Below are positions 5,897 through 39,229 of a stretch of 64,000 bases of DNA, piece after piece. Made by a program: the position numbers and the translations under genes. The notes below the pieces were generated by a model. That model was not told the DNA's origin, searched no databases, and worked only from the letters and a program-made list of their open reading frames with translations. Source of the DNA: Medicago truncatula (taxonomy: Eukaryota; Streptophyta; Magnoliopsida; Fabales; Fabaceae); contig NC_053048.1 in NCBI RefSeq assembly GCF_003473485.1, positions 36,328,755-36,392,754 of the forward strand. The letters run 5' to 3'. Numbering within the stretch: the stretch's first letter is position 1; every line of letters starts with the position of its first letter.

Positions 5897-6146
5897 CTAA
5901 GTCAGCAAACTAGCTTCCACTCTCCTTCTCTGGTAGGCCATACTTGTAAAGTGGTCTTTGTTTATCTTATTCTATGTTAAATATACTTCATCTTTCTCCT
6001 CACTCCTTTCTTTCTCACTAGAATCTACCATTCGACCTTCCACTTAATTTCTTTTCCAACAAAGCCAACATTTTCTTTAAAAGCTTGTATTCACTGCCAA
6101 TAAACTTGTATAACACACAGCTTTTGCTACAAGACATAGAATAACT
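5897..6146 (+). promoter_or_regulatory. TNL upstream region, homologous to the CNL upstream region
   Basis: This stretch ends 42 bp before the TNL start codon. It aligns almost end to end with the reverse complement of 38975-39229, upstream of the CNL gene. Shared words include TGGTAGGCCATA, GTAAAGTGGTCTTTGTT, TGTTAAATATACTT, CATCTTTCTCCTCAC, CCAACAAAGCCAACATTTT, AAAGCTTGTATTCACT and GCTACAAGACATAGAATAAC, with only small gaps. By eye most positions agree; no percentage was computed. The position suggests core promoter and 5' UTR. The pyrimidine-rich middle could be leader sequence. Confidence 0.75.
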
Positions 6147-6188
6147 CAGCACAATACGAGCTACAAAGTTGTAGCAATTGTTGAACAA

Positions 6189-9100
6189 ATGGAAGCCTCT
6201 TCTTCTTCTTCTTGCAGATCAAGTTCAACCACAAGTTTATGCACCTACCATGTCTTTTTGAGTTTTCGAGGAGAAGATACACGCAAAGGATTCACCGATC
6301 ATTTATGTGCTGCCCTTGAAAGAAAAGGGATCACAACTTTTAAAGATGACAAAGACCTTGAGAGAGGGCAAGTCATTTCAGAAAAGCTAATCAATGCAAT
6401 AAAAGATTCTATGTTTGCCATCACTATTCTCTCACCAGACTATGCTTCTTCCACTTGGTGTTTGGATGAGCTTCAAATGATCATGGAGTGCAGCAGCAAA
6501 AACAACCTGCATGTTTTGCCAGTCTTCTATGGTGTGGATCCATCTGATGTAAGGCATCAAAGAGGATGCTTTGAGGAAGCTTTCAGAAAACATCAAGAGA
6601 AATTCGGTCAACACAGTGACAGGGTTGATAGATGGAGAGATGCTTTCACACAAGTTGCCAGTTACTCTGGATGGGACTCCAAGGGCCAGTAAGTTAGCTA
6701 CCTCTTCAATAGATATATTTGTATGAGTTTAACTGTGTTAAAAATTCAAAATCAGACTCATGTGCTTGAGTTTACCTTGTAATTATCTGAAGGGGTATGT
6801 TAAACATACAAAATCATTTCCATAATTTCATTTTATTTGCTTATGATTTGGTTGTTTGTTGGCCTCTTCTTTCCTTCTGTCTCAACAGGCATGAGGCGTC
6901 ACTAGTCGAAAACATTGCTCAACACATACATAGAAAGTTGGTTCCTAAATTGCCATCTTGTACAGAGAACCTTGTTGGGATTGTTTCAAAGGTGGAGGAA
7001 GTAAACAAGTTCTTAGGTATGGGGTTGAATGACGTTCGCTTTATAGGCATATGGGGTATGGGTGGCATAGGCAAGTCAACTATTGCTAGAGCGGTCTATG
7101 AAACAATCCGATGTGAATTTGAACTTACTTGCTTTCTAGAAAATGTTAGAGAGATATCTGAGACAAATGGTTTAGTTCACTTACAAAGACAACTTCTTTC
7201 TCATCTGAGTATAAGTAGGAATGATTTTCATGATTTGTATGATGGGAAAAAAACAATACAAAACTCTTTATGCAGAAAAAAGGTTCTACTTGTTCTTGAT
7301 GATGTGAATGAACTAAACCAGTTGGAGAATTTGGTTGGGAAACAAGATTGGTTTGGTCCGGGAAGTAGAGTAATAATCACAACAAGAGACAAGCACTTGC
7401 TAATGACACATGGAGTACATAAAACCTATAAAACTGGAATGTTATGCAAACATGATGCCCTTGTTCTCTTTTGTTTGAAAGCCTTTAAAGGAGATAAACC
7501 ACAAGAAGGGTATTTGGACTTATCCAAAGAAGTGGTGGACTATTGTGGTGGTCTTCCATTGGCACTTGAGGTGTTAGGTTCCTATCTGTATGGAAGAAAT
7601 ATTGATGTTTGGCATAGTGCTGTTAAAAAATTAAGAAGTTTTCCCCACCCTAGAGTCCAAGATAACCTGAAAATAAGTTATGATAGTTTAGATACCATGG
7701 AGAAGGATATTTTTCTAGATATTGCTTGTTTCTTTAAGGGAATGAAGGGAGATAAAGTTATAGATATATTAGAAAGTTGTGGCTATTTCCCTCAAATTGG
7801 AATTCAAATTTTGATTGAAAGATCATTGATAACTCTAGATTCTGTGAATAATAAATTGGGAATGCATGATTTGCTTCAAGAAATGGGCAGGGATATTGTA
7901 TTTCAGGAATCTCCAAATGATCCTTGTAGACGTAGCAGGTTGTGGTCTCAAGAGGACATTGATCGCGTCTTGACAAAAAACAAGGTACTAGTAGGAGCTA
8001 ATATTTCTGCAACTGTCGGATAATTGGTTTTATATGAAATAACTAGCAAGTATAGATTAACTGATATGCACTGTTAGTGTAAATATCTCTTACAATGTCA
8101 ATTAATAACAAATAATTTGATGAGATTTTAAGGTAGTTAGGACAAAAGTAATCGTTTATAATCATCATTGATTACCATTTTGTTTGCTTAAGTTTGTGTT
8201 TTCCTTGATTCTATAAGATCATGTATTTGTTATTATGGTTTTGTAGGGAACTGAAGCAATTAACAGTATTGATATGAAATTACTTCAACCATATGAAGCA
8301 CATTGGAACACTGAAGCATTCTCAAAGACAAGTCAGCTAAAATTTCTCAGTTTATGTGAGATGCAACTTCCTCTTGGCCTCAGTTGCCTTCCTAGTTCAT
8401 TAAAAGTTCTTCACTGGAGAGGGTGTCCTTTAAAAACTCTCCCTATAACAACTCAACTTGATGAACTTGTTGACATTACATTATCTCATAGCAAAATTGA
8501 ACAACTCTGGCAAGGAGTAAAGGTAATAGACTCTTTGACCAAGAACTCTATTAAAGCTTACCATTATGACATTTGATGCTGATAACTTGTTCACATTTTT
8601 ACAACTTTGAGCAGTTTATGGAAAAGATGAAGTACTTGAATTTGGCTTTTTCCAAGAACCTAAAGAGATTGCCTGATTTTTCTGGTGTTCCAAATCTTGA
8701 AAAATTGATTCTTGAAGGCTGTGAAGGCCTAATTGAGGTTCATCCATCCCTTGCACACCACAAGAAAGTTGTTCTGGTGAATTTGAAAGACTGCAAAAGT
8801 CTTAAATCTCTTTCAGGGAAGTTGGAGATGAGTTCCCTGAAGAAGTTAATTCTTTCAGGCAGCAGTAAATTTAAATTCCTTCCAGAGTTTGGGGAAAAAA
8901 TGGAAAATTTATCAATGCTTGCTTTAGAAGGAACAGATATAAGAAAACTGCCCTTATCACTTGGAAGACTAGTCGGACTTACTAATTTGAACTTAAAGGA
9001 CTGCAAAAGCCTGGTTTGTCTTCCAGATACCATTCATGGATTGAATTCCCTCATAACTCTGGACATTTCAGGATGCTCAAAACTTTGTAGACTGCCAGAT

Positions 9101-10772
9101 GGTTTAAAGGAAATCAAGTGTTTGGAGGAACTCCATGCCAATGATACTGCTATTGATGAACTACCTTCCTCCATTTTTTATCTAGATAGTCTTAAAGTTT
9201 TATCATTTGCTGGTTGCCAAGGGCCATCGACAACGTCAATGAACTGGTTTCTTCCCTTCAATTTGATGTTTGGGAGTCAACCAGCTTCCAATGGATTCAG
9301 ATTACCAAGTTCTGTCATGGGATTACCTTCTTTGGAATATTTAAACCTAAGTTATTGTAATCTTTCTGAAGAATCATTCCCGAATTATTTTCACCACCTA
9401 TCATCTTTGAAGTCTTTGGATCTGACTGGTAACAATTTTGTTATCATACCAAGTAGCATTTCTAAACTTTCAAGGCTTAGATTTCTTTGTCTAAATTGGT
9501 GCCAAAAGCTTCAATTGTTGCCAGAGCTTCCATTAACCATGACACAGTTGAATGCAAGCAATTGTGATTCACTGGACACTATGAAATTTAATCCAGCAAA
9601 GCTATGCAGTCTCTTTGCATCACCTAGAAAACTGTCCTACGTTCAAGAACTTTACAAGAGATTTGAGGTATGTATCTCCTCATTATCTGTAACTGTGTAA
9701 AAATTCTTGAAGTACTTTGATGGTGATACATTAAGCCATTCAATGCATAATAAATAGGACACAAATAGAATATGATATCTAAGATTAAGGGCCTATTCCG
9801 ATTGACTTATTCGTGCTTCTTTACCGGCATAAGCAGTTGTGAGACTGTTTCGGAGAACTTATGGAATTATTTGTGCTTCTCTACCGACATAACACTTGTG
9901 AGACTGTTTCGGAGAACTTATGGAAACAGCTTATGACATGTCCATAACCTCTCCATGATAGCATATGAAAACAACTTTTAAGTTGTATGAAAAGTTCTTG
10001 ACTTTATTTCATCTTTTGTCATAAAAATAGCTTATACATAAGCATTTATATGATAAACGCTTAATTAAACTGTTTAGTCAAACAAGGCTTAACTTTGTAA
10101 TAATAATGTGTATTATGCATTACTCTCATAGTATATAAGCATTTCGTGTGTTAGTTTACTTGAGGATGGCTATGACATAATCTCTCATAGTTGTATGAAA
10201 AGTTTCACAATTATGTGTAGCACAATGATACAAATAGAATATGAGCTGTAAGATTAACTTTGTAGTAAAAGTTTCACAATTATGTGTTGCAGGATCGTTG
10301 TCTCCCCACAACAAGATTTGACATGCTTATCCCAGGGGATGAAATTCCATCTTGGTTTGTTCCTCAAAGATCCGTTTCCTGGGCAAAAGTACATATCCCT
10401 AATAATTTCCCTCAAGATGAATGGGTAGGATTTGCATTGTGTTTCCTATTAGTGAGTTATGCTGACCCACCTGAATTGTGTAAGCATGAGATTGATTGTT
10501 ATTTGTTTGCATCTAATGGTAAGAAGTTAATCACCACCAGGAGTTTACCTCCTATGGACCCATGTTATCCTCATCTTTATATTCTCTACATGTCCATCGA
10601 TGAATTTCGCGATGAAATTCTCAAAGATGATTACTGGAGTGAGAGTGGCATTGAATTTGTATTGAAATGTTACTGCTGTCAATCATTGCAAGTAGTGAGT
10701 TGTGGTTCCCGTTTGGTTTGTAAGCAAGATGTTGAAGATTGGAGCAAAATGAGTCATTTCAACGAGAGTTGA
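6189..10772 (+). CDS. TIR-NBS-LRR (TNL) disease-resistance protein with C-JID domain
   Basis: Five exons with GT-AG junctions: 6189-6688, 6889-7984, 8247-8522, 8615-9667, 10293-10772, giving about 1134 residues with no break. TIR domain at residues 19-160 (HVFLSFRGEDTRKGF); the STWCLDEL motif keeps the glutamate (E94) that is catalytic in plant TIR NADases. NB-ARC: P-loop GMGGIGKST (223-231), kinase-2 LLVLDDV (~300-306), RNBS-B VIITTRD, FLDIACFF (TIR-type RNBS-D), GLPLAL (388-393) and an intact MHD (492-494). LRRs run from about 533 to the end of exon 4. The last exon (LIPGDEIPSWFVPQ) is a C-JID post-LRR domain, which binds effectors in characterised TNLs. Family knowledge predicts effector recognition, oligomerisation and NADase signalling through EDS1. 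The exon layout is the usual TNL one, and all motifs look functional. A decayed relative lies inverted at 30100-32510. The specificity is unknown. Confidence 0.92.
9789..10089. mobile_element. Tourist-like (PIF/Harbinger) MITE in TNL intron 4
   Basis: A 301-bp insertion starting GGGCCTATTCCGATTGAC, with a degenerate inverted match at its right end, flanked by TAA at 9786-9788 and 10090-10092. The paralogous intron in the TNL pseudogene reads straight through as AAGATTAACTTTGTAAT (minus strand, near 30865), which is the empty site. Inside are two ~57 bp near-identical tandem copies (about 9808-9924) containing GAGACTGTTTCGGAGAACTT. Confidence 0.7.
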
Positions 10773-12208
10773 AGATATTTGCAGATCATATAGTTGGTAC
10801 TTGTCAATAACATCATTCCTTGAGATGCAAGTAACATGATATTACAAATTGGACCATCAAGATGCTGCACATGCATCTTGAAACAGTATCAGATGCAGAA
10901 GAAATCTTAAATATTAGAAAGTTTGAAACCTGTTTTAGTGGTCTTTGTTTAAAGAAGATGGTAAAGAGTCCAAGATAATCAGCAACTTGATGTGGTTTAA
11001 ATTTGAACTTGATTTATATGATAACGATTAATTAGTTCTGACTGACTCATGTAATATTTCATCTATATTTAGGTAAAATTGAAACGAACACTTTATTTTT
11101 CCTGTCTTTGATGTCGTCAATGGCATATCTTATAGTCTAAATTCTATACACCATTTTCTTTTGACTATTGTCTGGAATATTTTATTATTTGATTATATTC
11201 CAATGTACTTATGGAGACAAATATCTTTATAATAATTATCCTCTAAAAAAAAATCTTTATAATAATTATATTTCAAATTGAATAATAATTAATTAAATAA
11301 TATTTGATTAATTGATATTGGCTTAATACGAGTGAAAATCAGCACGGCTCATTAAAAGAATAATAGGAAACCCTAATTGACCACAGTATAAAAGAAAGAC
11401 TATGGTCTTCAATATATCAGATTGACAATTTTTTTTTTTAAGGAATACCAGACTGACAATATTATTGCCTCTTTCCTTCAAAAAAAATAAAATTATGGCA
11501 ACTTCTCCCTCTTCTCATCTGAAGAGTGCAATTGCAATACGAGTTTAGGTTGAAGAAGAACCATAAGAGCAGCTGCTAACTGTTTTAGATCGTTGCTTGT
11601 AGGGAGGCTACCATCAAAGGTTATTCCTAATACCTAATTCCTAGTATAGTTTATATGCATGCTCATCTGTTTATTCTGCTCTAAACTATAATTATGATTT
11701 TAATCTGTATAGAGCATGTCATTGATGAATTATGAAATTAATTCCAACAGTACTAGCTCTCATGAATGCATCAACTAGTGATTATGACCTAGTTTTTTGT
11801 TTTGTTTAGGCAAATAGTATTAGTTATCAAGTAAACTAGTGCTTATTTTAATTTGTAGCATCTGAATTTTGGACGTCATGGTTAAAATTGCTGTCACGTC
11901 TGTCAAGTCATCGATTGAGCTGTTCATTAGGACCTAAATATTGTTGAATAACCTACATTAGTATTGAAAAATTGTCTGAATTTAAATAATTTTATATATA
12001 CATTTAAAACACATTAATTTGTGACTTCCAATTTCTAAACAGATATACTAAATGTGACTTCCAACTACCGAGGAAGAATAAAAATTCATAGTTTCTGATA
12101 GGCAAATATAAATTCATTTTATGGAATATTAAGCAATGCTTTATCTCTTTCTCTTCCAAATTCTGAATTCAGATCCTCTCTGGAACAGTTTTCTTCACTT
12201 GAAACAGA
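10773..12208. other. Spacer between TNL and first Hsp70 gene
   Basis: No coding sequence is recognised. TNL 3' UTR sequence extends to about 10940, because the inverted pseudogene copy stays alignable that far. A TATA-like TATAAAAG sits at 11387-11394, far upstream of the Hsp70 ATG; it could serve a leader with a 5' UTR intron, but this is unproven. The last ~230 bp (from about 11980) align with the upstream of the second Hsp70 gene (from about 16200), so the duplication includes the proximal promoter. No clear heat-shock element was found by eye. Confidence 0.55.
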
Positions 12209-14224
12209 ATGGCCAAAAAATATGAAGGACCTGCCATTGGAATCGACCTTGGCACGACCTATTCATGCGTAGCAGTTTGGCAGCAGCGTAACAATCGAGC
12301 TGAGATCATCCACAATGATCAAGGCAATAGAACCACACCTTCTGTTGTAGCTTTCACTGATTCACTAAGGTTAATTGGTAATGCTGCTAAAAATCAGGCT
12401 GCCTCAAACCCAACCAACACTATCTTCGGTAGTAATTGATATTTCTTTCTTTCTTTCTGTTCACGTTGTTTTATAAATTAATTTATAGTTGTTAATATGC
12501 TTTCACTAAAAAAGAGAAAATTATATATCACAGCCATTTTATTTATTTATGCAGATGCGAAGAGGTTAATTGGAAGGAAATTCAGTGATTCCATTATTCG
12601 GAAAGATATAAAGTTGTGGCCCTTTAAGGTCATTCCTGGAGCTGATGACAATCCCAAGATCCTTGTTAAGTACAAGGGCAAAGAGAAGTGCTTTGTTGCT
12701 GAGGAAATATCGTCTATGATCCTCTCAAAGATGCAGGAGATTGCAGAGAAATTTTTGGAGTTACCCGTAAAGAATGCAGTGATCACAGTGCCAGCTTATT
12801 TCAATGATTCTCAGCGAAAAGCCACCAAAGATGCCGGCATTATTGCTGGCCTCAATGTAATGCGGATAATCAATGAACCAACTGCTGCTGCACTTGCATA
12901 TGGAATTCAAAAGAGAGGTAATTTTGTTGTTGGAAAGCGAAATGTATTCATCTTTGATCTTGGTGGTGGCACCTTTGATGTGTCTCTTCTCACACTTAAG
13001 GATGATAGTTTTGAAGTAAAGGCCACTGCTGGTGATACTCACCTAGGAGGAGAGGACTTCGATAATAAAATGGTGAGCCACTTTGTGAATGAGTTGAAGA
13101 GGAAGAACAATGTGGACATTAGTTTGAACCCAAAAGCTTTAAGGAAGCTGAGAACTGCTTGTGAGAGGGCAAAGAGGGCACTTTCATATGACATTGAGGC
13201 CACAATTGACATAGATGCTATATGTCAGGGTATTGACTTCTGCTCATCAATTACTCGGGCGAAATTTGAGCGACTCAACATGGACCTCTTTGAAAAATGT
13301 ATGGAGATTGTTCGGAGTTGTCTACGTGATGCTTACATGGACCAGAGTATGGTACATGAAATTGTCCTTGTTGGAGGTTCATCTAGAATTCCCAAAGTGC
13401 GGAAACTATTGCAAGACTTTTTCAAGGGTAGGGATTTGTGCATGAGCATAAACCCTGACGAGGCTGTTGCTTATGGTGCAGCTGTGCAGGCTGCTTTGTT
13501 GATTGATGGCATTAAGAATGTTCCAAATTTGGTCTTGCGAGATATTACACCCTTGTCGCTTGGTATATGGACAAAAGGAGATGTCATGAGTGTAGTGATT
13601 CCTAAGAACACTCCAATTCCTATTAAGATGACTGAGGATAGATGTAAGACAAGTGTAGATAACCAACTTGGTGTATCCATCCATGTTTATGAGGGTGAGA
13701 GAATAAAAGCCAGTGAGAACAACTTGTTGGGTTTGTTTCGTCTCTTTGTTCCTCCTGCTCCCCGTGGCCTTTGCATCAAAGTATGTTTTGCTATCGATGC
13801 AGATGGTATATTAAATGTCACTGCTGAGGAAGAAACAACTGGAAATAAGAGTGAGATCACAATAACAAATGATAATAGAAGACTTTCAACTCAAGAAATT
13901 GAGCGAATGATCCAAGAAGCTGAGAAATTCAAGGTTGAAGATATGAAGTTTCAAGAGAAAGCTAGAGCGGTAAATGCTTTGGAAGATTATCTTTACAAAA
14001 CGAGTAAAGTAATGGAGGATAACAGTGTTAGTTCCATGCTGGCTCCTGCAGACAAAATGAAGATCGATTCTGCGATTATGAATGGAAAGAGTTTGATTGA
14101 TAATCATGGCAACCAGCACAATGAAACATACGTGTTTGTAGACTTTTTAAAGGAGCTTGAAATCATCTTTGAATCCTCGTTGAATAAAATAAACAAAGGT
14201 TTCAAGAGAAAGTTTGAGCAATGA
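12209..14224 (+). CDS. HSP70: Hsp70-like chaperone, copy A (lacks EEVD tail)
   Basis: Two exons, 12209-12428 and 12555-14224 (GT-AG; the split codon rebuilds the Asp of [11 protein letters not shown]), giving 629 residues. The nucleotide-binding domain has [41 protein letters not shown] and [11 protein letters not shown], so ATP binding and hydrolysis look possible. The substrate-binding domain starts near [14 protein letters not shown] and is followed by [16 protein letters not shown] and a helical lid. Cytosolic Hsp70s usually have about 650 residues and end in EEVD, which docks TPR co-chaperones such as HOP and CHIP. This protein ends KGFKRKFEQ, so that tail and the Gly-rich linker are missing. 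Codon structure is intact over 1.9 kb, which argues for a functional but divergent member. It is probably cytosolic because no transit peptide is seen. Confidence 0.9.
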
Positions 14225-15150
14225 ATTTACAGCATGAGTTAAGTAATGAAGGATAACAGTGTTAGTTCCATATCGACTCTTGGAGACAAAGTAGTGCAAA
14301 AAGAAACATGTGTTTATGGACTTTATGAAGGAGCTTGAAAGATCAACAAAAGTTACATGCTCTGATGACGAAATTGATTTGGAATATTTTAGTTTTTTAT
14401 CATTTTCTTATCAATTTCAGTTTCCTCATGTACTTGATGAAGCTGTTTGTGTTGCGACTCATTCTCGAAATGATATGACTCAGAGACACACACAGATATA
14501 TATATTTCATTCAATAAGAGAGTAAGTGTTAGAAATAATATGTTAAAATATGCGTTGCTAATATTTCACAATAAAATTCACACCAATAACATCCGGCACT
14601 CTCTATCAAAAAATAAAATAAAATCCGGCACTATCACTAGAAGATTAACTAAATTGCTTCTAATGGTTCTTAAAAAAAAGATTACTTTCTAATGTATCTC
14701 ATGAAAACAACTATTTAGAAAGAAATGATTACTCTTGTGATTCCTTAACTTAATTTCAAATAATGATTTCTTCCTTTATCTTTTTTTCACGTCATTTTTA
14801 TCCTTTTAATTAATTTGAATGAAAGAAAATTGTTCAAGTTATAATAGAAAATGCTATAGAGTGCTCTTAGAGCATTGGTTATAGAAACAAAAATAAAAAC
14901 ATTGTGTTGGAAAATGGTAAAAAAAATTATCAATTAAATTTGTAAAAAGTTTAAAATGTGGTTTTTCTAAATTACTAATTTTGATTTCCTTAACCTTAAC
15001 CGGTTACTTCTACCCAATTATAGTTATAAAAGTTGAGTATGTCATATCTTTCTTGTTATGACTATCAACTAAACCCTTACCGTTGTATTATGTATAAGTT
15101 CAAACAGCTCATACAAAACATAATTTAGAGAATCAGTAAACTCATATTAT
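14225..15150. other. Spacer after Hsp70 A
   Basis: AT-rich with no gene. The first ~100 bp repeat part of the Hsp70 3' coding sequence in degraded form (AAGTAATGAAGGATAACAGTG), and the same degraded repeat follows Hsp70 B at about 18425. Past about 15100 the sequence aligns with the region after Hsp70 B (from about 18760), marking the duplicated block. Confidence 0.5.
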
Positions 15151-15319
15151 CATTTACTGCTCAATATGGTTACATAATTATCAAGGTTCAAACAGTTATA
15201 ACGATGAAAGCTACAATATTAAAACAGTGCAAAACAAAAAATGATAAACAAAAATAATGTAATGGCAAAAGGTATGCCTTAATATTATGATATAAACAAG
15301 TAAAAACAACTTAGATACA

Positions 15320-15639: not shown

Positions 15640-16384
15640 TCTAAGTTCTATACATTTTTTATATATTTTTTTTATATAAGAAATAAGCAAGAGTGCAGGA
15701 CTACTTAGAAGCAGTTACTCTGATGGATATCAACTAGGACCTAATTTTTTATTTCGTTTAGGCTAATATTAATTGTTAATTCTCAGGATTTGAACTCTAG
15801 ACCTCATGGTTACAAGTCCTACCGTCTCCGCCAAATCATCAATTGAGTTTCCCAGTAGGACCTAGATGCAGAACTCGGTTAACATTTTACATATTTTTTG
15901 AGACAATACAAGTAAAACAACAAGCAAAAGCTAAAGTACTAAAAAATGCATGGTTTAAGCTAAACTATAAACAGAAATTCCTACATTTGATTTTAAGCTA
16001 AAGGATTCAAATGGTTACAACCTCCTGCCTTTTCTTCTGAGTATATTTTCAAAAAGAAGATTAAATTTTTTAAGACTAATCAATAACCTATTCAGAGTAG
16101 AAGTTTAATAGCCTTTTGAAACAGTAATTCATATGCATTGTCCAACTCCAAACGTTTCCATGTGGTTTTTGAAATTAATTACTAGTAGTATTGAATTTTT
16201 TTTTGAATTTTTTAAATAACTTATATGCATTTAAAACACATTAATTTGTGACTTCCAATTTCTAAACAGATATACTAATGTGCACCAACTACCGAGGGAG
16301 TCTGTTTAGTGCATACATGTATCTCTTTCTCTTCCAAAAGTCTAAATTAAAATCCTCTCTAAAACAGTTTTATTCACTTAGAGA
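15640..16384. other. Spacer before Hsp70 B
   Basis: No gene. Around 15740-15870 there is a degenerate copy of a sequence also present at about 11790-11940. It contains, on the minus strand, GAGTTCAAATCC, which resembles a Pol III B box, so an old tRNA-derived SINE is possible but weak. From about 16200 the sequence matches the upstream of Hsp70 A. Confidence 0.4.
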
Positions 16385-18393: not shown

Positions 18394-19087
18394 ATTCTTT
18401 AGACGACTACATTTACAACATGAGTTAAGTAATGAAGGATAACAGTGTTGGTTCTATTCTGAGTCTTGGAGACAAAATAGTGCTTAATTATGCAACTATA
18501 AGGTCCACTTAATCTTATGAGGGAAGTGATTTGTAATATTTTAGTCTTTTTAGTTGCGTTTATCAATTTCAGTTTCTTCATGTATAATGTTGAAGTAGCA
18601 TGTTTTGCTTCTTTGATTACATATTTTGATAATATATGCTATGCTGGCCTTGTTATAAAATTAACATGTCTTACCATGTTGTCTTTCTTCTTATCAAATA
18701 GAATCTCGCTATAGTTTCAAAGTGCTCATACCAGAACATATAAATTGGGCCATCAGCAAACTCATTACTACTCTCAATATGAAGGTTACATAATCATTTT
18801 CACACTTCAAACCATTACAAATTTACAATGATGAAAGCTACAACATTAGAAAAACAGAGCATAACGAAAAATGATTGAAATACAAAATGTAATGGCCAAA
18901 GGTATGGCTTAATATTATTATATAAACAAGTAAGACAACTTAGATACATTACAACAATCCCTAAAAAGTGGTATTAGTCAGCCTTTCAAATCCTTGGTAC
19001 TGATATTTTACAAACAACTTATTTACTTGCAGATTAAAAATATTGCCAAATCGCATTTTTCATTTAACAAAACTATATGTTGCTGGT
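18394..19087. other. Convergent spacer between Hsp70 B and malectin gene
   Basis: Contains the 3' ends of both convergent genes. A degraded repeat of the Hsp70 coding tail lies at about 18395-18470. No kinase-like coding sequence is present downstream of the malectin gene stop at 19088, so the missing kinase domain is not simply frameshifted here. Confidence 0.5.
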
Positions 19088-20747: not shown

Positions 20748-21077
20748 GGGGATTTATTGAATTATGATTCTACGAGATTTTAAAAGATTTTTTAATTATG
20801 AAAAAGTTTTGTGGTATTCAATCAAGATTCTTTGTCATTTTAAAAAAGTCTTGAGGTATTCAATCAAAACTTTTATCACTTAAAAAAAGTCTTCTGGTAT
20901 TCAAAATCATTCAAATTTTGAAGGATTGTTTAATAATTTGGATTTTGATGGATTTTGTAGTGTAATTTTAACAAGAAAAAGTCTTTCATAAAAAGATGAA
21001 ATTTCTTGAGATTGTTTTTCTTTTAAAAGTTACTGTATCTTTCTTCTCCTTTCTTTCTCTCCCTCCCCCTCCCTCTC

Positions 21078-21151
<74 letters not shown>

Positions 21152-26879: not shown

Positions 26880-27239
26880 TATGAATAGTAGTGTTGACTT
26901 TTGTTTGCATATTTTAAAATTTTAACCAATTGGTCTGCGGTGGATCATTTATGAAGGTGATTTTTCTTAAAAAAAATAAAAATTATGAAGGTGATCTACT
27001 AAAGAACTCACCTTGAGTTTATTCATAAACACTTATGATATTGTTTGAGAAAGCTTATAAAAACATTTTATGAGGTTACATAACTTGTTTTCAGTTTATT
27101 TCTATAATCTTTTAAAGATAACTTGTAAAAAGAGTTTATAAATTATACAAAAGCAATTTAACTTTTTTTAAAAGAAAAAACAATATAATTTTAAAAAAAG
27201 TTAATGATTTTTAAAATGTGTAAACACAGCTTGACGAAT

Positions 27240-27464
27240 AGGTTGAACACCCTACACCACAACCCCATCCACCGAAATCGAAGACAACGAATTAAGTCTT
27301 CTTCTAGCGGTTAAGATAGAGTGAAATTTTTTGGAATTAGCGTCACCATCCCGGAGCCAATTTAATCTTGATTGCTGCCAACAAATACTTGTATTAAGAC
27401 GAGACAGAGAATGAATATCCGTCGAAATACCATGAAGTTCATCGAGTTCGCCGATGAACTTCAT
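27240..27464 (-). mobile_element. LINE ORF2 fragment
   Basis: The minus-strand translation contains QQSRLNWLRDGDANSKKFHS, the conserved phrase that precedes the reverse transcriptase domain in plant L1-type LINEs (usual form: SR..WL..GD.NTKFFH), followed by ARRRLNSL. An in-frame stop follows at 27249-27251 and the frame goes on as GVQPIRQAV. Only about 75 codons remain, so it is an old fragment. Confidence 0.75.
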
Positions 27465-27804
27465 ATTATTACAAAACTTAATTTATAAACAATATATTAA
27501 TCTGTAAAATTTTAGAAATTTTAGAATCCAAAACTTATTATTATGTTGAGATTCATAAGTCGTAGGTGATATGTGATACTAACATAACAAGTAACAAATG
27601 TATCTACAAGGCTTCCAACAACGGTTTGTATTCAATCAAATTATAATAACTTATGCTAGAAAATAGTCAGCGAGCCATCCCTTCCTCGTTCCGATGGTAT
27701 AAATGGAAATTTCAGAGATTAGGCCTCTTCTATGTTTGAAATTGAAATTAGTTTCAAAATTCAAACAATTCATACACAAGAGAATTGCTGTTTACACTTT
27801 ACAT

Positions 27805-28745
27805 AAGGCTGTACCACATGGATATTTTACTCTTTTGCCCCCTTGGCAGTTAACTGTCGAGGAATTTGAAATCCGACTGCAATTAACTGCCGATGAAAAC
27901 TTCGGTAGTTAACTGTCGAAGAAAACTGATTATGCAGACAGTGGATTCTGCATAATTTTAAACATTTCCAAACCATTTTTTCGGCCAGTTTTTACCTGTA
28001 ATTAAACCAGAGCATTTCCAAAGGAAAAATAATTCATACAAGATTGAAACTCGGACATAAACAAGATAAATACAATATTTTTTACAATTGTCCATAATTA
28101 AATTAAACCGACATTTGGTTCAAATTACACAAACTTTTGAAATTACACATCATTAAATTAAATCCCTACTTACATTCAACGCAATTGCATATGGAACGAA
28201 CATACATATATAATGTATTATCTTCCACCATATTCCGAAACATAAATCTGACGTCGCTATCGTTGCGAATAAGCCAAGGCATATAACTTGCCGTTTTCCA
28301 TGCGTATTCATCTCTATCTTCTCCTAGGTCTATGCATGACATTTGACCAAACAAGTGACGTGTATATTGATTTTCACCAAGATGCTCAAAATAAGTGTTA
28401 AGTTGTGCCTTCAAATCGTCAAGAGAGTCCGTCGGAGTTATCATAACCTTAACCGTGTTTTTAAAATGTTCAATACCTATTTTTTTACGTCAAAAGTGTG
28501 TTGATACCTCCTATGCTTGATGCTTGAATGATTTTGGATTAAGAATTGATGAAAAAAATATTGGATTTTGGGATTGAATGGTGGTAGAAATGAAGTTGAT
28601 GATGAAAATAGTGTGTAGGGGGAGCAGGTGGCTGTTTCATCTGATGAAACATTTCCTCGGCAGTTAACTGCAGCCGGAATTCAAATTCCTCGGCAGTTAA
28701 CTGTCGAGGGGGTAAAATTGTATTTTACTAGTGTGGCACAACCTT
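27805..28745. mobile_element. TIR element with palindromic CAGTTAACTG subterminal motifs
   Basis: The left end (AAGGCTGTACCACATGG, then TTTTGCCCCCTTGGCAGTTA) is an imperfect inverted copy of the right end (TAAAATTGTATTTTACTAG, GTGTGGCACAACCTT). Each end carries GGCAGTTAACTGTCGAGG-like units: three at the left (about 27847, 27880, 27906) and two at the right (about 28659, 28691). The core CAGTTAACTG is a perfect palindrome. No convincing target duplication was found. The paralogous flank lacks the element. Superfamily is uncertain; Mutator-like is my best guess because of the encoded fragment. Confidence 0.6.
28166..28444 (-). CDS. Small open frame inside the TIR element, possible MULE-derived fragment
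   Basis: 92 codons from ATG, and the frame is open for roughly 25 codons further upstream (HFKNTVKV before the Met). It reads TPTDSLDDLKAQLNTY, then LIRNDSDVRFMF. I associate the pattern of a DDLK segment followed by a NDxDVxxMF segment with N-terminal domains of plant Mutator-like transposase proteins, but this is from memory and not secure. It may be a fragment captured or retained by a non-autonomous element. No catalytic region is present. Confidence 0.35.
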   Translation of the reverse strand: MITPTDSLDDLKAQLNTYFEHLGENQYTRHLFGQMSCIDLGEDRDEYAWKTASYMPWLIRNDSDVRFMFRNMVEDNTLYMYVRSICNCVECK

Positions 28746-29384
28746 ATCAAATGTGGGAACAACAATTCTCGAAACAACTAGATTTGCTAAATAATTAAAT
28801 TGAAATTATTTAATAGTAATTCTTTAACCTCGGTGCTTTTCCAGTTTTCTTGTCAATCTTCTCTTGTTTCCAAATGCAAGGAAGTTATTTTATAAACATA
28901 CTTGGGACGCTCAAGCATAAGGTGTGCAAACAAAGAGATAACAAAACGGATAAAATAGCATCAAAGTTGTCACTATAGTATAATCAAACAGACTTAACAC
29001 AAAGATATTTATGGCAAGAACATGTGTATAAAAAAACTAGAATCCAACATTAACACTGTCCAGCAAAGCTGCACTACACTTGAAGCAGGTAACCACCATT
29101 GTTTTTCACTTCAAAGCATTGCCAACCCACATTTAATTCCCAACCTCCAATAGTTACAGGACAGAATCACGGGTCTTCCCGATTTAGTACATGCAGCCAC
29201 TCCATTTGCAAAACATTTCAGCGCAATAACATAACAACAAGCAATTTGCAGCAACCAATTAACTCAGTTCTGCATTGAAATACAAAACCGGATCAGATTG
29301 TTTTCCTCAATAATTTAATATTACAGAAACAAAGAAGAATAACTTAATACCTTTAAACTTGACAGTGATATCCTTGAATTCCTC

Positions 29385-29610
29385 TTAATTTTCTGATGAT
29401 TTAATGTAAACGTGTTTGATGTGTGATATCTTGGGCCAATCATGTCCTACCTCTGGCTGGTATCTTCTACATAATTCAGGACAACCTTCCATTCCTAAGA
29501 TTTCAAGGTTTGGGAGGCAATGCAAATCATCAGGGAGAGAAAGTACTTTCGGGCAATTCACAATTAAAAGTGTATTTAGACAATGTGAATTAATTATCCA
29601 TACAATACCT
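29385..29610 (-). pseudogene. Tail of a CC-NBS-LRR gene
   Basis: The minus strand encodes CLNTLLIVNCPKVLSLPDDL, HCLPNLEILGMEGCPELC and QPEVGHDWPKISHIK, almost the same as the last ~70 residues of the CNL at 36301-38862, ending KSSEN where the intact gene ends KSSEHEN. Homology stops at about 29610; upstream there is unrelated sequence, so only the final LRRs remain. The downstream flank is also duplicated. Confidence 0.85.
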
Positions 29611-29660: not shown

Positions 29661-30099
29661 TCTGGATGGAGGAGCAACTTGGTATTAACTAAATTTTAAA
29701 TGAGAAAACCAAAATAAATAATTCCCACTGACATTTAGTGGTTGACACTGTCGAATAGGATTACCTCTTGCCGAGAAACTATGAGAAAACAAAATAAATA
29801 AATAAATGAGAAACAATATTTTGATACAAAATAATTTGTTGTCGAAACTTGATGTAAAGTTTTTGAGTCAAAATTCAAAATAACACGACTCATTTTATTT
29901 TGACAAATATTAATTCGTTTTATTTTACATTGTTGATGTAGTTCCTATGTTAATTTGTTTTACTGATATAAAAGGCACCAAAGGCAATACTACTTATGAG
30001 TTGATATAGACTTTATTTCTCTATTTATAGACTCAAACGGTCTTATAAATTAAGTTCGAATTTAAACCACACAAAACTCATGTGCTATCTTGAGCTGAA
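29661..30099. other. Spacer between the two NLR relics
   Basis: AT-rich, no coding homology and no clear repeat seen. Confidence 0.45.
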
Positions 30100-32510
30100 T
30101 CTAACCATTTTATTTAAACAATGGCCACTAAAACAAGTTCAAGATATTGTTTGCTTGTGCAGCATCTTGCCGGTCAAATTTGTAACATCATGTTACTTGC
30201 AGCTTAATGTTCATCAAGGAATGGTCTCTAAATATCTTCAACTCTCGTTGAATTGATTCATCACTTTGTTCCAATCTTTAACATCTTGCTTACACACCAA
30301 ACGGCAACCACACTTCACTATTTGCAATGAATGACAGCAGTAACATTTCAATACAAATTCAATGCCATTCTCACTCCAGTAATCATCTTTGAGAATTCTA
30401 TCGCGAAATTGATCAATGGACAAGTAGAGAATATAAAGGTGAGGAAGATATGGATTCATAGGAGGTAATGTTCTGGTGGTGACAAACAGCTTAGCATTAC
30501 TTGAAAACAAGCAACAATCAATCTCATGGTTGCACAGCTCAGGTGGGTCAGCATAACTAAGTAACAGAAAACACAGAAAATCCCATCCAATCATCTAGAT
30601 GGCAATTATTAGGGACTTGTATTTTTGCCCAGGAAACAATTCTTTGAGGAACAAACCAAGATGGGGTTTCTTTCCCAGGGATAAGCATGTCAAATCTTGC
30701 AGAGGGAAGACAAAGTCCCTGAAACACGTAATTGTGAAGTTAAGTAACAAGATGGAGATTATGTCATAGCATTAGCCATTCTAAAGTACAGACACACATG
30801 AAATTATTATGTCTATGAGAGTAATGCATAATACATCAATAGGCTTCAATTTTCATTACAAAGTTAATCTTACCACTCATATTCTATTTGTCTCATATGT
30901 TATTATGCATTGATTGCCTTAATGTATCACCATCAAGTGCATCAAGAATTTTTACACAGATAAATCTAAGATACGTACCTCGATAAAACTGTTAATTTTT
31001 TTTTCAACGTAAGATAGTTGTCTAGGTGATGCAAAGACACTGCATGGCTTTGCTGGATTAAATTTGGTAGTTTCCAGTGAATCACAGTTACTTGCATCCA
31101 ACTCAGTCATACTTGATGAAATCTCTGGCAACAATTGAAGCTTTTGGCAGCAATTTAGATAAAGAAAATGTAGCTTTGGCAGTTTAGAAATGGTGCTTGG
31201 TATGTAAACAAAATTGTTACCAGTTAGATCCAAAGACTTCAACGATGATAAGTGGCGAAGATAATCTGGGATTGATTCTTCAGAAAGATTACAGTAACTT
31301 AAGTTTATATATCTCAAAGAAGGTAAATTCCAAAGAGAAGTTGGAAATCTGAATCCAGTAGAAGCTTGTTGACTCCCAACTATCCAATTAAAGGGAAGAA
31401 ACCAGTTCATTGACTTGGTCAATGGCCCTTTGGAACCAGCAAATGATAATACTTTTAAGATTATCTAGATAGAAAATGGAGGAAGGTAGTTCATCAATAG
31501 CAGTATCATTGGCATGAAGTTCCTTCAAACACTTTATTTCCTTTAATCCATCTGGCAATCTACAAAGTCTTGAACATCCGGAAATGTTCAAAATTATGAG
31601 AGAATTCAATCGATGAATGGTATCTGGAAGGCAAACAAGACTTTTGCAGTTCTTTAAGTTTAAACTAGCAAGTCCAACTAGGCTTCCTAGTGATGAGGGT
31701 AGGTTTCTAATAGCTATTCCTTCTAAGGCAAGCATCGATAGATTTTCCATGCTTTCCCCAAACTCCGGAAGGATTTTAAATTCACAACAGCCAGAAAGAA
31801 TTAACTTCTCCAGAGAACTCATTTCCAACTTCCCTGGAAGAGATTTAAGACTTTTGCAGTCTTCTAAATTCATCAAAACAACTTTCTTGTGGTGTAAAAG
31901 GGATGGATGAACCTCAGTCAGGCCATCACAGCCTTTGAGAATCAATTTTTCAAGATTTGGAACACCAGAAAAATCAGGCAATCTCTTTAGCTTCTTGGAA
32001 AAAGTCATATTCAAGTACTTCAACTTTCCTATAAACTGCTCAAAATTGTAAAAATATGAAAAAGTTATCAGCATCAATCGTCATGGTGATGAAATTTAAT
32101 AGAGGTCTCGATGAAAGAGTGTCTTACCTTTATTCCTTGCCAAAGGTGTTGAATTTTGCTGTGAGATAATTTAATGTCAACAACTTCATCCAGTTGAGTT
32201 GTTTGTGGGCCAGAGTTTTCAATGGACAACCTCTCCAATGGAGAACTTTTAATGAACAAGGAAGGCAACTGAGGCTAAGGGGAAGTTGCATCTCACCTAA
32301 ACTAAGATATTTTAGGTGACTTGTGTTAAAGAATGCTTCACTGCTCCAATGCTTCATATGATTGAAGTAATTTCACACCTATGCTGTTAATTGCTTCGGT
32401 TCCCTACAAAACCATAATAACAAAAAGTATAATCTTATAGAATGAGGGAAAGCACAAACTTAAGCAAACAAATGGTTGCATTGCATTGTGTGTGTAAAAT
32501 ATTTATTTAG
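30100..32510 (-). pseudogene. TNL pseudogene: LRR and C-JID half only
   Basis: An inverted, diverged copy of exons 3-5 and introns of the TNL at 6189-10772. Exon 3 copy about 32406-32130 (SLSCLPCSLKVLHWRGCPLK), exon 4 copy about 32035-30978 (KLKRLPDFSGVPNLEKLILK), exon 5 copy about 30715-30238 (SYADPPELCNHEIDCCLF). Intron 2 is recognisable to about 32510; beyond that the TIR and NB-ARC exons are gone. At least three frameshifts are visible: in exon 3 after CPLKTL (+2 bases), near 31420 after the FYLDNLK block, and near 30590 before CFLLLSYADPPEL. The 3' UTR homology continues to about 30100. It cannot encode a receptor. Confidence 0.9.
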
Positions 32511-32571
32511 TTTAACTTTGATATACTTGTAGCTCAAGAAAAATCTATACTGTCAATCAATCATAAACGGT

Positions 32572-32928
32572 CATAAATGCGACAACCTGATTATGCTCGA
32601 GTGCCCGAACGATTGATGCATTCCGCCGATCGATCCTTCTCAGGTTCGATCAATCGCATCCTCACAAGTCTCCTATCAATTGATGCATTCCTTATGACGA
32701 TCTCTGATCTCAAGCCCCAATTCCAAACCCTAACTCTTGAAGGATAATGATTTGGTTCTTAACAGTGGTTTGAGTCTCCACTTTTGTGAATATGAAGCAT
32801 TTTAATCAACGATATGTAGTTTTCTCGTATCTTATGCTTCAATTTCAGATTTCAATCTTCATTTTCTCTTGTGACCAATGTTAACTTAAATTTGTAAAAT
32901 CTAGCATAATCAGGTTGTCGCATTTATG
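32572..32928. mobile_element. 357-bp element with perfect 26-bp inverted repeats
   Basis: 32572-32597 (CATAAATGCGACAACCTGAT then TATGCT) is the exact reverse complement of 32903-32928. The interior is unique, with several GATTGATGCATTCC/GATCAATCG words facing each other. No clear target duplication beyond TAA. It begins about 60 bp past the breakpoint of the TNL pseudogene. Superfamily not recognised. Confidence 0.65.
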
Positions 32929-33531: not shown

Positions 33532-33771
33532 CATAAAATACCCTGCTGCTATGTACACATTGATTGTTGTTGTAAGTATTGCTACTTTTATTTGCATCGG
33601 TACCTTTGTTTTCCCGGTGTAAGTTATTGTTTTTAATTTCTGCCGTTTTGATGGATAATTGCAACAATAATTAATTTAACGTTGTTAAAGTGCAGTTTGC
33701 TTCTAATAAATGAAATCATTCTGAACATAGGCAGTAACATAACTCTTTAGCTTCATTCATGGGGACTTGAC

Positions 33772-34582: not shown

Positions 34583-34612
34583 GTTTGTTTGTTTACTGTG
34601 TGGCTTCCATGA

Positions 34613-36300
34613 GTTTCTGACTTTGGCCGCATTACTTTATGTTTTTCGTATTATCAATGCCATCAATATGTAAATAAAATTTGCTTGTAAGCCAGTAACT
34701 GCATTATATTCTTAATCTTTGGGGTCAATTCTTGCAATTGGTATGTTGTTTTGGTGAGATTCCTTTCAAACCAAGAAGAGATGTTGAAATTTGAATGTCA
34801 TGCGAAGTAGTTTATTTATCATTGTTATGTGCTTTTTTTTTTCTTTCTTTTTGGGGACAAGTACAACTGTTGCTCTTGTGAAATGACCTCACAAAGATTT
34901 TGTTGTTTAATATGAATCAAATTAAGCATTTTAGTTTTTACCCTATTGTGTGCTCATTGCCAGTTATATGTCCAAACATGATGCTTTATGCATACATTGA
35001 ACTCTGAAGGCATCAGTTGCTATAAATATGAACTTGATTGGTATCGATTTTTATTTCATTCACGTATGATTACATCTTTGTATCCGGGAATTATGAATTT
35101 TCTCCTCTTAGTCCGCGAATCCAATTTTCTAGCCTACAATCATGTAGTTTTTCAGAGGAAGGAAATTATAAGGAGCCTTTAGATAGATTTTGTGCTGTTT
35201 TTTTCTTGAATACTATTTCAGCAATTTATTTTCTGTTCACTCTTCAAATATTCATCTGTTTTTATTTTTGTTCTTAGTCCTACTATGATTTTGCTTATTT
35301 GAATAGTACCTTCGACTTTTGTTTGTATTTTTGATAATTTTAACTAATGGTCTACAATGGAACACTTATGAAGGTGATATACTAAAGAACTCGCCTTGAG
35401 TTTATTCATAAACACTTGTGATATTGTTTGAGAGAGTTTATAAAAATATTTTATGACGTTACACATTTTTAATAAAGGATTAAGGACAAAAAAAAATTAA
35501 GCCAATATCTAATTACCACGAGATCAATGGTTAGGAGTTAATTTAAAAAAAATGAAAAATATAATATCTTAATTTGTAAAATTTTAGAAATTTTTGAATC
35601 CGAAACTTTTTATGTTGAGTAATTAGTTCATAAGCCGTAGGTAATATGTGATACTAACAAATGTATCTACAAGGCTTCCAAAAGTAGTTCATACACCTAA
35701 ACTAGATTTGCTAAATAATTGAATTGAAATTATTTAATAGTAATTCTTCAACCTCAGTGTTTTCCAGTTTTCTTTTCAATCTTCTCTTTTTTCCAAATGC
35801 AAAGAAGTTATTTTATAAATATACTTGGGACTCTCAAGCATAAGTTGTGCAAAGAGATAACAAAACAGATAAAAATAGTATCAAAGTTGTCACTATAGAT
35901 ACCTATGACAAGAACATGAGTATCTAACAAAACTAGAATCCAACAATACTAATACATCCAGCAATCATGCACTACACTTGAAGCTGATAACCAACATTCT
36001 GTTTCACTTCAAAGCATTGCCAACCCACTTTTAATTCCAAGCCTTCAACAGTAACAAGACAGAATCACGGGTCTTTGCGATTTAGTACATTCAGCCACTC
36101 CATTTGCCAAACATTTCAGCGCAATAACATAACAACGTAACATGCAATATGCAGCAACCAATTAACAGAAAGTTGTTACCTCAGTTCTGCATTGAAATAC
36201 AAAACCGAATCCGAATGTTTTCCTCAATAATTTTATATTACAGAAACAAAGAAGAGCAACTTATACCTTTTAACTTGACAGTGATATCCTTGCATTCCTC
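34613..36300. other. Spacer and CNL 3' flank (copy 2 of the duplicated flank)
   Basis: 34613-35300 is AT-rich with no recognised feature. From about 35300 the sequence matches copy 1 (26880-29385) block by block, without the LINE fragment and TIR element. No coding sequence is seen. Confidence 0.6.
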
Positions 36301-38862
36301 TTAATTTTCATGTTCTGATGATTTAATGTTAACTCGTTTGATGTGTGAAATCTTGGGCCAATCATGTCCTACCTTTGGCTGGTATCTTTTACATAATTCA
36401 GGACAATCTTTCATTTCTAAGCATTCAAGGTTTGGGAGGCAATGCACATCATCAGGGAGTGAAAGTAGTTTCGGGCAATTTCTAATTGTAAGTGTATTTA
36501 GACAAATGAAAGTTGATGACCACTCAGGAAGTTTCTCAAGATTTTCACAGTGACCAATAAATAAGCTGTGTAATGTGTCCGCACATCCTTGCAACCATTG
36601 AGGAAAACTCAACAATTCTGGCAAGGATTCAATATACAGTAACTTGAGCCTTAACTTGGGAATTGCATTCTCATGGCCCAAAGACAATTTCAACTTATTG
36701 CAATTACTAATCATCAAACTATCCACATTTGGAATAAGCTGGAGTGGCAAAGATGTTATATTCCCACAATAAATAATACTCAACGATTTAAGATTAGGTA
36801 GTTCTAATTCTCCAAGCAATGACTCCAAATTGTCACAAGAACAGATAGATAAGAACTCTAGATAAGTCAATTTGGCAATCTCTTTGTCTGGAAAACTAGA
36901 TTGCATTGTGGTTATATGTAGTTGTCGAAGGCTGATCAAATTTCCTATCCCATTGGGTAATTTTTCAAGCTTTAAGCATCCCTCAAGAATCAAAGTTTGC
37001 AAATTCTGAAGTTTGCACACTGAATCAGGGAGGCTCTTCAATTCTTTATTTCCCTTAAGATTGAGATATCTCAAATGTTTTAATTTACCAATTGAGCGGG
37101 GCAAACTCTCATATGTAGAATGAGTTAACCGCAAAACTCGCAAGAATTTACACCTTGATGCCAAATTGTTCAAAAAAGCTACATTGTTGGCTTCTAATGG
37201 AAAAAGTATGGTTCTCAGTCCTGCGGGAATTGGTGTTTGTCCAAGTAAATCATTTGTAGTAAATGACAAATGGAGAACATTCTTAATTATATTTTCATTA
37301 TGGAGTTTCAGCAATTGAAACTCATCTCTGGCAACATATAGGGCAAGATCATGCACTAAATCATGCAATTTAAATACACAAACATTACCAGAGACATAGA
37401 AATCTTGAAGGAAAGATCTTGATTGTAGCTCGTGCAAAAATTGATTACCGACATCTTCCAAGGTTTTACCCTTGTTTGGTGATGGAAGAAAATCAAGAGC
37501 CTCCCAAAGCACAGTGACAGTATAAGTAACAAATTTGAAGTCTTTTTCGAAGAGGGAGAAGCAGGCAAAACATCGTTTTAAATAAGATGGTAATTGATCA
37601 AAACTTAATTTGATAGCAGGCAAAATATCATCTTCTTTTTGTGGTAAATTCCAAATCTCATTGTCCCTAACAAACTTCCACTCTTCTATATCATCTTTTA
37701 AGAACAATAAACTCCCCAATGTTCTTAGGGCCAAAGGAAGCCCTCCACATTTTTGAACAATTTCTTTCCCAATCTCTATCAATTTTGGATATTTTTTCTC
37801 TTCTCCCTCTTTAAATGCCCATTTGACAAATACAGACAAGGAATCCTCTCTAGAAAGACCTTGCAAAGTGTAAGATGTGTTTGTGCACATCATTTTAGCA
37901 ATTGAGTGACTACGTGTAGTCACTAAAACTTTACTTCCTTCATCTCCTACTTGTAATAGATTCTTCACCTCTATCCATTTGACACGATCCTCGCTCCACA
38001 CGTCATCCAAGACAAGCAAGAATTTTTTGCCAGCAAGTGTGTTTCTCAAATGAGTTTGTAGCTGCTGCACATCAAGGTTTTTAATGTTCTCTTCGTGAAT
38101 GAGGTTAGGAGTGGCATCACTAACGCTAGCTGAATTGAGGATTTTAATGAGCAGATGCTGAAGTTCAAAATCATCGGAGACACACACCCACATCTTTAAT
38201 GGGAAAGTCTCGTCTAAACTCTTATCATTGAACACCGTCTTTGCAAGTGTAGTCTTTCCCAAGCCTCCAATTCCAACAATAGGAATAACAGAGAGACTTT
38301 TATGACCACTATCTTGCAATAAGAGATCAATAATTTTTTGCTTATCGTAATCCCTTCCTATCACATCAGAATCAACTACATGCGAATGAGTCAACTCCCG
38401 CCTTTTTACAACATGATTATCGCTATCATTGATTTGAAGGCCAAAATTATGCCTAGCAGCAGCGTTCTTATTCAATCTCTTATTAATATGTTTGATTTGA
38501 TGTGCCATTTTAAGGCGATAAACAAGAGGATTAGAACTGGATAAGTAACGTCGTACCTTCCTTCTGATGCTACCAGAAGTGTTGACTACGTGCTTTCGCA
38601 ATGCCTCGCACTCAAAATCATTGATTACATCTTCTGCATCGTAGAAGACACGTTTGATCTGTTGCAGCCATTCACGAAGCTCGTGATTCTGCTTCTGCTT
38701 TAACTCAGCATCCAAGAGCACTGCTTTGATGAGTGACACAGTGTTTTTAATCTCTCGTAGATCATCATAGACGCCGAGTGCCAATGAAGCTTCTTCAACA
38801 GCACGAGAAGCAACCTTGGTGATAAATGATTCAGCAAGGCTAAAGAGAAATGATTCTGCCAT
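36301..38862 (-). CDS. CC-NBS-LRR (CNL) disease-resistance protein, RGA-like
   Basis: One intronless frame of 853 residues. The N-terminal coiled-coil domain (1-~165) carries the EDVID-type motif as AEDVINDFE (76-84). NB-ARC: P-loop GIGGLGKTT (197-205), kinase-2 FLLVLDDVW (281-289; the final W is typical of CNLs), RNBS-B KVLVTTRS, GLPLAL (374-379) and CFACFSLFEKDF (431-442, non-TIR RNBS-D). The MHD motif is LHD (KLHDLVHDLA, 499-501): the Met is replaced, though His and Asp remain. LRRs run from about 560 to the end, ending in CPELCKRYQPKVGHDWPKIS, as in many RGA2/Rpi-blb1-like proteins. Family knowledge predicts recognition of a pathogen effector and assembly of a membrane resistosome. Its upstream region matches that of the TNL gene, and its tail and flank are duplicated at 26880-29610. 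No defect is visible. Confidence 0.92.
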   Translation of the reverse strand: MAESFLFSLAESFITKVASRAVEEASLALGVYDDLREIKNTVSLIKAVLLDAELKQKQNHELREWLQQIKRVFYDAEDVINDFECEALRKHVVNTSGSIRRKVRRYLSSSNPLVYRLKMAHQIKHINKRLNKNAAARHNFGLQINDSDNHVVKRRELTHSHVVDSDVIGRDYDKQKIIDLLLQDSGHKSLSVIPIVGIGGLGKTTLAKTVFNDKSLDETFPLKMWVCVSDDFELQHLLIKILNSASVSDATPNLIHEENIKNLDVQQLQTHLRNTLAGKKFLLVLDDVWSEDRVKWIEVKNLLQVGDEGSKVLVTTRSHSIAKMMCTNTSYTLQGLSREDSLSVFVKWAFKEGEEKKYPKLIEIGKEIVQKCGGLPLALRTLGSLLFLKDDIEEWKFVRDNEIWNLPQKEDDILPAIKLSFDQLPSYLKRCFACFSLFEKDFKFVTYTVTVLWEALDFLPSPNKGKTLEDVGNQFLHELQSRSFLQDFYVSGNVCVFKLHDLVHDLALYVARDEFQLLKLHNENIIKNVLHLSFTTNDLLGQTPIPAGLRTILFPLEANNVAFLNNLASRCKFLRVLRLTHSTYESLPRSIGKLKHLRYLNLKGNKELKSLPDSVCKLQNLQTLILEGCLKLEKLPNGIGNLISLRQLHITTMQSSFPDKEIAKLTYLEFLSICSCDNLESLLGELELPNLKSLSIIYCGNITSLPLQLIPNVDSLMISNCNKLKLSLGHENAIPKLRLKLLYIESLPELLSFPQWLQGCADTLHSLFIGHCENLEKLPEWSSTFICLNTLTIRNCPKLLSLPDDVHCLPNLECLEMKDCPELCKRYQPKVGHDWPKISHIKRVNIKSSEHEN

Positions 38863-38974
38863 GTTGATTGATTGGTTTTTGAATTTGGTGAGGAGCTGAA
38901 ATGGTTGAAGCCAAAGGAAGCAAAAGGTGAAGTTGCAACCAACAACTTTGAATTAATAATATATACTAATTCGA

Positions 38975-39229
38975 AGTTATTCTATGTCTTGTAGCAAAAG
39001 TATTGTTTTAATACAAGTTTATTGGTAGTGAATACAAGCTTTTAAAATGTTGGCTTTGTTGGAAAAGAAAATGAGTGGAAGGTGGTATGGTAGCTTCTAG
39101 TCTAGTGTGAAAGAAAGGAGTGTGAGGAGAAAGATGAAAGTATATTTAACATATAATAAGAAGAACAAAGACCACTTTACAAATATGGCCTACCAAGGAA
39201 AGAGTGGGGAAGCTAGTTTGTTGACTTAG
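38975..39229 (-). promoter_or_regulatory. CNL upstream region, homologous to the TNL upstream region
   Basis: On the minus strand this runs from CTAAGTCAACAAACTAGC to ATAGAATAACTT and matches 5897-6146 nearly throughout. It ends about 110 bp before the CNL ATG, so the two genes diverge right at the leader/coding edge. Homology outside this block was not seen on the distal side. Confidence 0.75.

Follow-up and report, generated by a model that had tools for sequence, protein, structure and literature searches.

A 250-bp block shared upstream of a TNL and a CNL gene in Medicago truncatula

Two NLR genes of different classes, a TNL and a CNL, carry nearly the same 250 bp upstream of their start codons. 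The block is close to private to these loci and joins two unrelated coding regions, so that one gene most likely took over the upstream region of the other. We think it fairly probable that a CNL came to stand in place of the front half of a TNL, retaining that TNL's promoter and leader, the block itself coming from a small TNL subgroup; this reading is built from sequence comparison.

The NLR genes of the window

The window, that is, the whole stretch of 64,000 nucleotides analysed here, corresponds to C7:36328755-36392754 of a genome of 430 Mb in 42 contigs. Besides unrelated genes, it contains an open TNL, a TNL remnant, an intact CNL and the 3' end of another CNL:

6189..10772, plus strand: TNL1, from Pfam matches and a splice model with predicted exons
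30041..32575, minus strand: TNL2 (T2), a remnant with the end of intron 2, the LRR and the C-terminal exons, from BLASTN against TNL1 and against the duplicated copy of the locus (X, described below)
36301..38862, minus strand: CNL1, an intact single-exon coding region of 853 aa, from Pfam matches
26882..29583, minus strand: CNL2, the 3' end of another CNL, whose 5' part appears to be CNL4 at C7:36506847-36509079

Pfam bears out an earlier reading of the window, made from its sequence alone, in placing the two complete coding regions in different NLR classes: TNL1 has TIR, NB-ARC, WHD_ROQ1 (a Roq1-type winged helix), LRR and C-JID domains, and CNL1 has Rx_N, NB-ARC, WH_DRP and LRR in one open frame. 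The predicted exons of TNL1 are 6189-6688, 6889-7984, 8247-8522, 8615 to about 9667, and from about 10272 onward; with ten open alternatives for the last intron, predicted splicing keeps the gene open across TIR, NB-ARC, LRR and C-JID and gives a protein of 1,115-1,150 aa. TNL1, under this predicted splicing, and CNL1 are the NLRs of the window that are open throughout. They are encoded on opposite strands and point towards each other across about 33 kb, with start codons at 6189 and 38862.

A shared block with sharp limits

The block and the two leaders that separate it from the start codons are as follows:

5897..6146, plus strand: block A, upstream region and leader of TNL1, 250 bp, from alignment with 39229-38975
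38975..39229, minus strand: block B, upstream of CNL1, from alignment with block A
6147..6188, plus strand: leader native to the TNL, between block A and the ATG, common to the TNL relatives T9 (24 bp) and T10 (whole)
38863..38974, minus strand: leader of CNL1, whose inner 88 bp or so align with the leader of a CNL relative on chromosome 4 (L038)

The sequence-only reading had described 5897-6146 and 38975-39229 as matching almost base for base with small gaps, and had proposed a pairwise alignment as a check. Once run, local alignment returned exactly these limits, with 259 columns, 13 of them gaps, and 225 of the 246 ungapped columns identical (91.5%; BLASTN E-value 1.05e-82). MAFFT, which places the gaps otherwise, finds blocks A and B identical in 219 of 246. 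The block ends 42 bp short of the start codon in TNL1 and 112 bp short in CNL1, and anchored extension shows its limits to be sharp at both ends: no match between the two loci was found beyond the outer edge (anchored left-flank score 10, reached by 101 of 400 random places) or beyond the leader side (anchored score 4, reached by 161 of 400). That the match stops between leader and start codons, as had been noticed from the sequence, is thus confirmed.

We also considered a TNL-derived piece of leader past the block in CNL1, where the two genes have CAAAGTTGT in common, and rejected it as not significant (255 of 2000 shuffles; 161 of 400 places by anchored extension). The stretch with CAAAGTTGT in the CNL1 leader fits the leader of the CNL relative too. 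Apart from itself and its duplicate, the 300-bp flank of block B matches a single place on C4, over 57 bp.

Three copies in the genome

Within the window the block occurs at exactly two places. In the 430-Mb genome we found it at three, all on C7 within 180 kb, with block A as query and with block B at E-values up to 10, although diverged copies can escape such searches. A 30-mer core with up to 3 mismatches returned the same three places, and a 24-mer core with up to three mismatches returned these three and one 3-mismatch match on C3. This whole-genome search, with the class of the gene that follows each copy, had been suggested by the sequence-only reading; the additional copy heads a CNL:

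C7:36513399-36513657: block C, third copy, ahead of CNL3, which is nearly identical to CNL1 but frameshifted

Blocks B and C are identical in 255 of 255 aligned bases, with one 4-bp indel. Such identity is expected with a probability of 0.04-0.05 from flanks at 98.8%, and we draw no inference from it.

Sharp limits would suit a transposable element, but just three copies were found, one of them inside a duplicated unit, and no target-site repeat was seen by eye at the ends of the block. A dispersed element, which the sequence-only reading had named as an outcome that would refute its view, we rejected on copy number, and we regard any reading of the block as a transposable element as highly improbable. 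Another source to weigh is a third gene that has since been lost or is missing from the assembly, from which both genes would have taken the block. NLR clusters often lose members, and no other member that was read carries the block; yet this would require two captures with the same outer limit, at 5897 and 39229, and no such gene was found in 430 Mb. We consider this origin quite improbable.

The two classes are as a rule regarded as distinct families, each exchanging sequence within itself. How unusual, then, is a block common to both? As a control, we compared about 600 bp upstream of 30 TNLs and 19 CNLs (570 pairs), on the same strand only and with the low-complexity filter on. The TNLs were 30 loci cut from 150 scored matches, TNL1 included; the CNLs were CNL1 and 18 others chosen by hand from 58 matches, several of them with start codons placed from the match and hence approximate limits. 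A long common block was present in one of the 570 pairs, TNL1 and CNL1. No other pair shared more than 30 bases, and two further cross-class pairs shared 25 and 30 bp at E-values below 1e-3. Within classes, upstream sharing at E-values below 1e-10 was found in 29 TNL pairs and 7 CNL pairs.

Which gene owned the block first?

The leaders of relatives on either side bear on this question. On the CNL side, the closest gene outside the unit, among those with a start codon read, is L038 on C4 (76% protein identity). Its leader aligns with that of CNL1 up to about 88 bp before the ATG, with a score of 49 reached by none of 150 random places; when the first 12 nt are left out, the score is reached by 2 of 150 and 10 of 1000 random places. 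The alignment does not continue into the block and, if right, places the CNL1 junction between about 38950 and 38975. In L039 and L040, the leader shows no alignment past the first 12 nt (52 and 47 of 150, respectively), so that one of the three CNL leaders tested, that of L038, aligns further. The block has no match in the 800-1100 bp upstream of each of the four relatives L038-L041; these outgroups are distant (70-76%, one 51%), the closer CNL4 and C4:57479485 being broken or left unread. We accordingly dropped the idea of a block general to the CNL lineage, as far as these four relatives go.

On the TNL side, T9 and T10 are close to TNL1 in the TIR exon (94% and 92%, respectively). T10, at C7:36.585 Mb, aligns with the TNL1 leader and beyond it with the 3'-terminal 47 bp or so of the block. 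The anchored score of 29 was reached by 2 of 400 and 5 of 1500 places in the window and by none of 1500 pieces of other TNL loci; when 33 offsets were allowed, one of 27 further TNL loci reached it. This extension is short and relies on the anchoring: without it, 379 of 2000 shuffles score as high as the alignment does. The T9 leader aligns over just the 24 bp before the ATG, and its extension towards the block has a score of 3, reached by 225 of 400. Compared as a whole, the block shows weak similarity to the T10 upstream region (14 of 300 shuffles) and none to that of T9 (211 of 300). No block match was found in T9, T10 or a relative on C8, and a block general to the TNL clade was likewise rejected.

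Modest evidence thus favours the TNL as first owner. In the opposite direction, the block would be the CNL unit's own promoter, and TNL1 would have gained it by ectopic conversion or repair from the unit 33 kb away. Though the less likely of the two, this direction retains some probability, because the block is absent from T9 and T10, the relatives nearest to TNL1 by their TIR exon; T9 and T10 also share another short upstream sequence (about 26 columns, its score reached by 43 of 2000 shuffles). It has against it that the T10 leader aligns, if weakly, with the 3'-most part of the block, that the leader of L038, the nearest CNL with a leader read, stops short of the block, and that both units have a TNL remnant behind the CNL. 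On balance we hold a transfer from CNL to TNL to be unlikely.

A TNL remnant behind the CNL in two units

CNL1 and its block belong to a larger duplicated unit:

35580..43383, minus strand: CNL unit including the block, duplicated (X) at C7:36509123-36517049, plus strand, with segments 97-99% identical

Read along one strand, both units have the same order: block, CNL, then a TNL from intron 2 onward. In the X unit, the TNL remnant, T3, begins within intron 2 (near TNL1 8062-8076), some 110-190 bp past the end of unit homology. In the window, TNL2 starts at 32575, and about 2.7 kb without TNL match lie between the 3' flank of CNL1 and TNL2; CNL and TNL remnant are close together in the X copy only. 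The TIR and NB-ARC exons have no BLASTN match in TNL2 or T3. At the 5' edge of TNL2, 29-bp inverted repeats bound a MITE-like segment of about 360 bp (32572-32928).

For the 5'-proximal part of the LRR (TNL1 8232-8750), a tree sets TNL1, TNL2 and T3 apart from T9, T10 and the C8 outgroup with a support of 83; T9 and T10 group with a support of 99, TNL2 and T3 with 100. Unrooted site counts in the 8250 and 8500 bins are 25 for TNL1 with TNL2 versus 3 and 1, and eight derived sites in this 5' part are found in TNL1 and TNL2 alone, versus two in TNL1 and T10. Over the whole LRR stretch, the unrooted counts are 33, 26 and 10, and the support for TNL1, TNL2 and T3 falls to 63; downstream of 8750, TNL1 groups with T10 (support 89 and 93). 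By these patterns TNL1, T10, T9 and TNL2 are mosaics over 8232-9595, and the tree backs the 5' part only.

Divergence between blocks A and B (21 of 246 sites, or 27 of 246 by MAFFT) does not differ significantly from that between TNL1 and TNL2 (176 of 1362; Fisher P-values 0.06 and 0.47). Between the two remnants, TNL2 and T3, one stretch shows 43 differences in 495 sites and a second shows 17 in 216 (about 8-9%), against 30 of 2561 (about 1.2%) for the CNL coding regions of the two units (P = 5e-17 for the comparison with 43 of 495). Since the remnants are far more diverged than the CNL parts, the two units do not have one simple common history, and conversion between the CNL units must be assumed. 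If block, CNL and TNL form one old arrangement, the CNL parts would have been homogenised since; otherwise, the CNL unit would have been placed twice.

A proposed replacement of a TNL front half

The reading we favour, a CNL set into a TNL, can be put together as follows. In a small TNL subgroup on C7, made up of TNL1 and of TNL2 and T3, which are both broken, the block would have formed the promoter-proximal sequence together with the start of the leader. An illegitimate rearrangement in one member would then have inserted a whole CNL unit, replacing the 5' half of that TNL between leader and intron 2; the incoming unit would have consisted of its own inner leader of about 88 bp, the coding region and the 3' flank. 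The outcome would be a CNL downstream of a TNL block, followed in turn by what remains of the TNL, its LRR end. We infer the TNL-to-CNL direction, the replacement in place and the role of the block as a working promoter. Much the same picture would be expected if a deletion in a tandem array had joined the leader of a TNL to that of a CNL.

Promoter capture by ectopic recombination had been the interpretation offered in the sequence-only reading. What stands of it is a near-private block ahead of unrelated coding regions, as opposed to a dispersed element; the route would be another one, with a CNL taking the place of the TIR-NB half of a second TNL rather than a copy of the block being carried to a distant CNL. 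The same reading had also seen evidence of recombination between TNL and CNL in the nearby TNL pseudogene followed directly by a CNL tail, and this argument has to be withdrawn. The tail (29583 downward) seems to derive from a different rearrangement: CNL4, a pseudogene at C7:36506847-36509079 on the plus strand, ends at the very codon where CNL2 (29583, minus strand) begins, at 36508 and 36505, respectively, in CNL1 coordinates. CNL4 and CNL2 look like two parts of one CNL, about 150 kb apart on opposite strands, which points to an inversion with one of its breaks inside the gene, or to an error in the assembly. The CNL tail would thus stand behind the TNL pseudogene because a separate rearrangement split this CNL. 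The reading frames of CNL4 and CNL3 are both broken.

Is the block a working promoter?

If the block holds a working promoter, both receptors would answer to the same inputs. More specifically, the receptor class may have been swapped in place, putting a CNL on the regulatory programme of a TNL and leaving the two open receptors of the window co-regulated despite their different signalling routes; we offer this tentatively, at somewhat less than an even chance. The block may instead be shared while not acting as a promoter, with transcription starting elsewhere or CNL1 silent, and hence without shared control, a view compatible with the other readings. No canonical TATAAA was seen by eye in the block, and the sister gene CNL3 is frameshifted, so one of the copies behind the block has decayed. 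Against this, the ATGs of the window's two NLRs that are open throughout follow the block at 42 and 112 bp, and copies A and B are still about 90% identical. We judge a block without promoter function rather unlikely, if well within consideration.

Both blocks contain a short upstream frame, with an ATG at 5974 and 39152 and a length of 15 and 16 aa, respectively; its first five and last six codons are the same in A and B despite two indels. This frame could be regulatory if transcribed, or could be due to chance. A structured RNA was also considered and discarded, the window having no Rfam match at gathering scores.

Relation to known promoter exchanges

In the rice Xa21 family, promoter regions have reportedly been exchanged between resistance gene paralogues by recombination near the 5' end. 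The present case is similar in that a coding region is joined to the upstream region of another gene inside a cluster, with the break near the leader. However, the Xa21 exchange involves paralogues with homology at the break, whereas the genes here belong to different NLR classes and have no homology there. A CRISPR study in soybean is said to have obtained NLR paralogues from chromosome breakage in tandem arrays. There too, new NLR arrangements arise through repair between array members but, by its description, within tandemly duplicated NBS-LRR complexes, while here a promoter would have passed between classes.

Head-to-head NLR pairs with a common promoter are described for RPS4/RRS1 and RGA4/RGA5 (PMC6032283). 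As in these pairs, two NLRs would share regulatory sequence; unlike them, TNL1 and CNL1 have separate copies of the block, lie 33 kb apart facing each other, and show no sign of being a functional pair. A head-to-head pair with a bidirectional promoter was therefore rejected, the genes being convergent at this distance and each having its own block copy. For Arabidopsis halleri, ectopic conversion along with promoter selection has been described at the HMA4 cluster (PMC3749932). Coding regions and promoters have separate histories there as well, but the HMA4 copies are homologous copies of one gene with homogenised coding regions, whereas the coding regions joined to our block are non-homologous.

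Among the entries covered, mostly the best 10-20 of longer lists, a literature search returned no paper on a promoter common to a TNL and a CNL, which is no proof of absence. The present case is a cross-class variant of known promoter exchange, and one case in one genome. A clean transfer of a promoter from one class to the other, if true, would mean that mixed clusters can rewire NLR expression while leaving the receptor untouched. With the same 250 bp upstream and a different receptor behind, TNL1 and CNL1 make a natural test pair for NLR promoter function.

Two further repeats were observed in the window: tandem HSP70 genes, 86% identical, at 11959-14297 and 16186-18483, and an inverted pair of about 1 kb, 87% identical, at 20784-21793 and 50305-49327.
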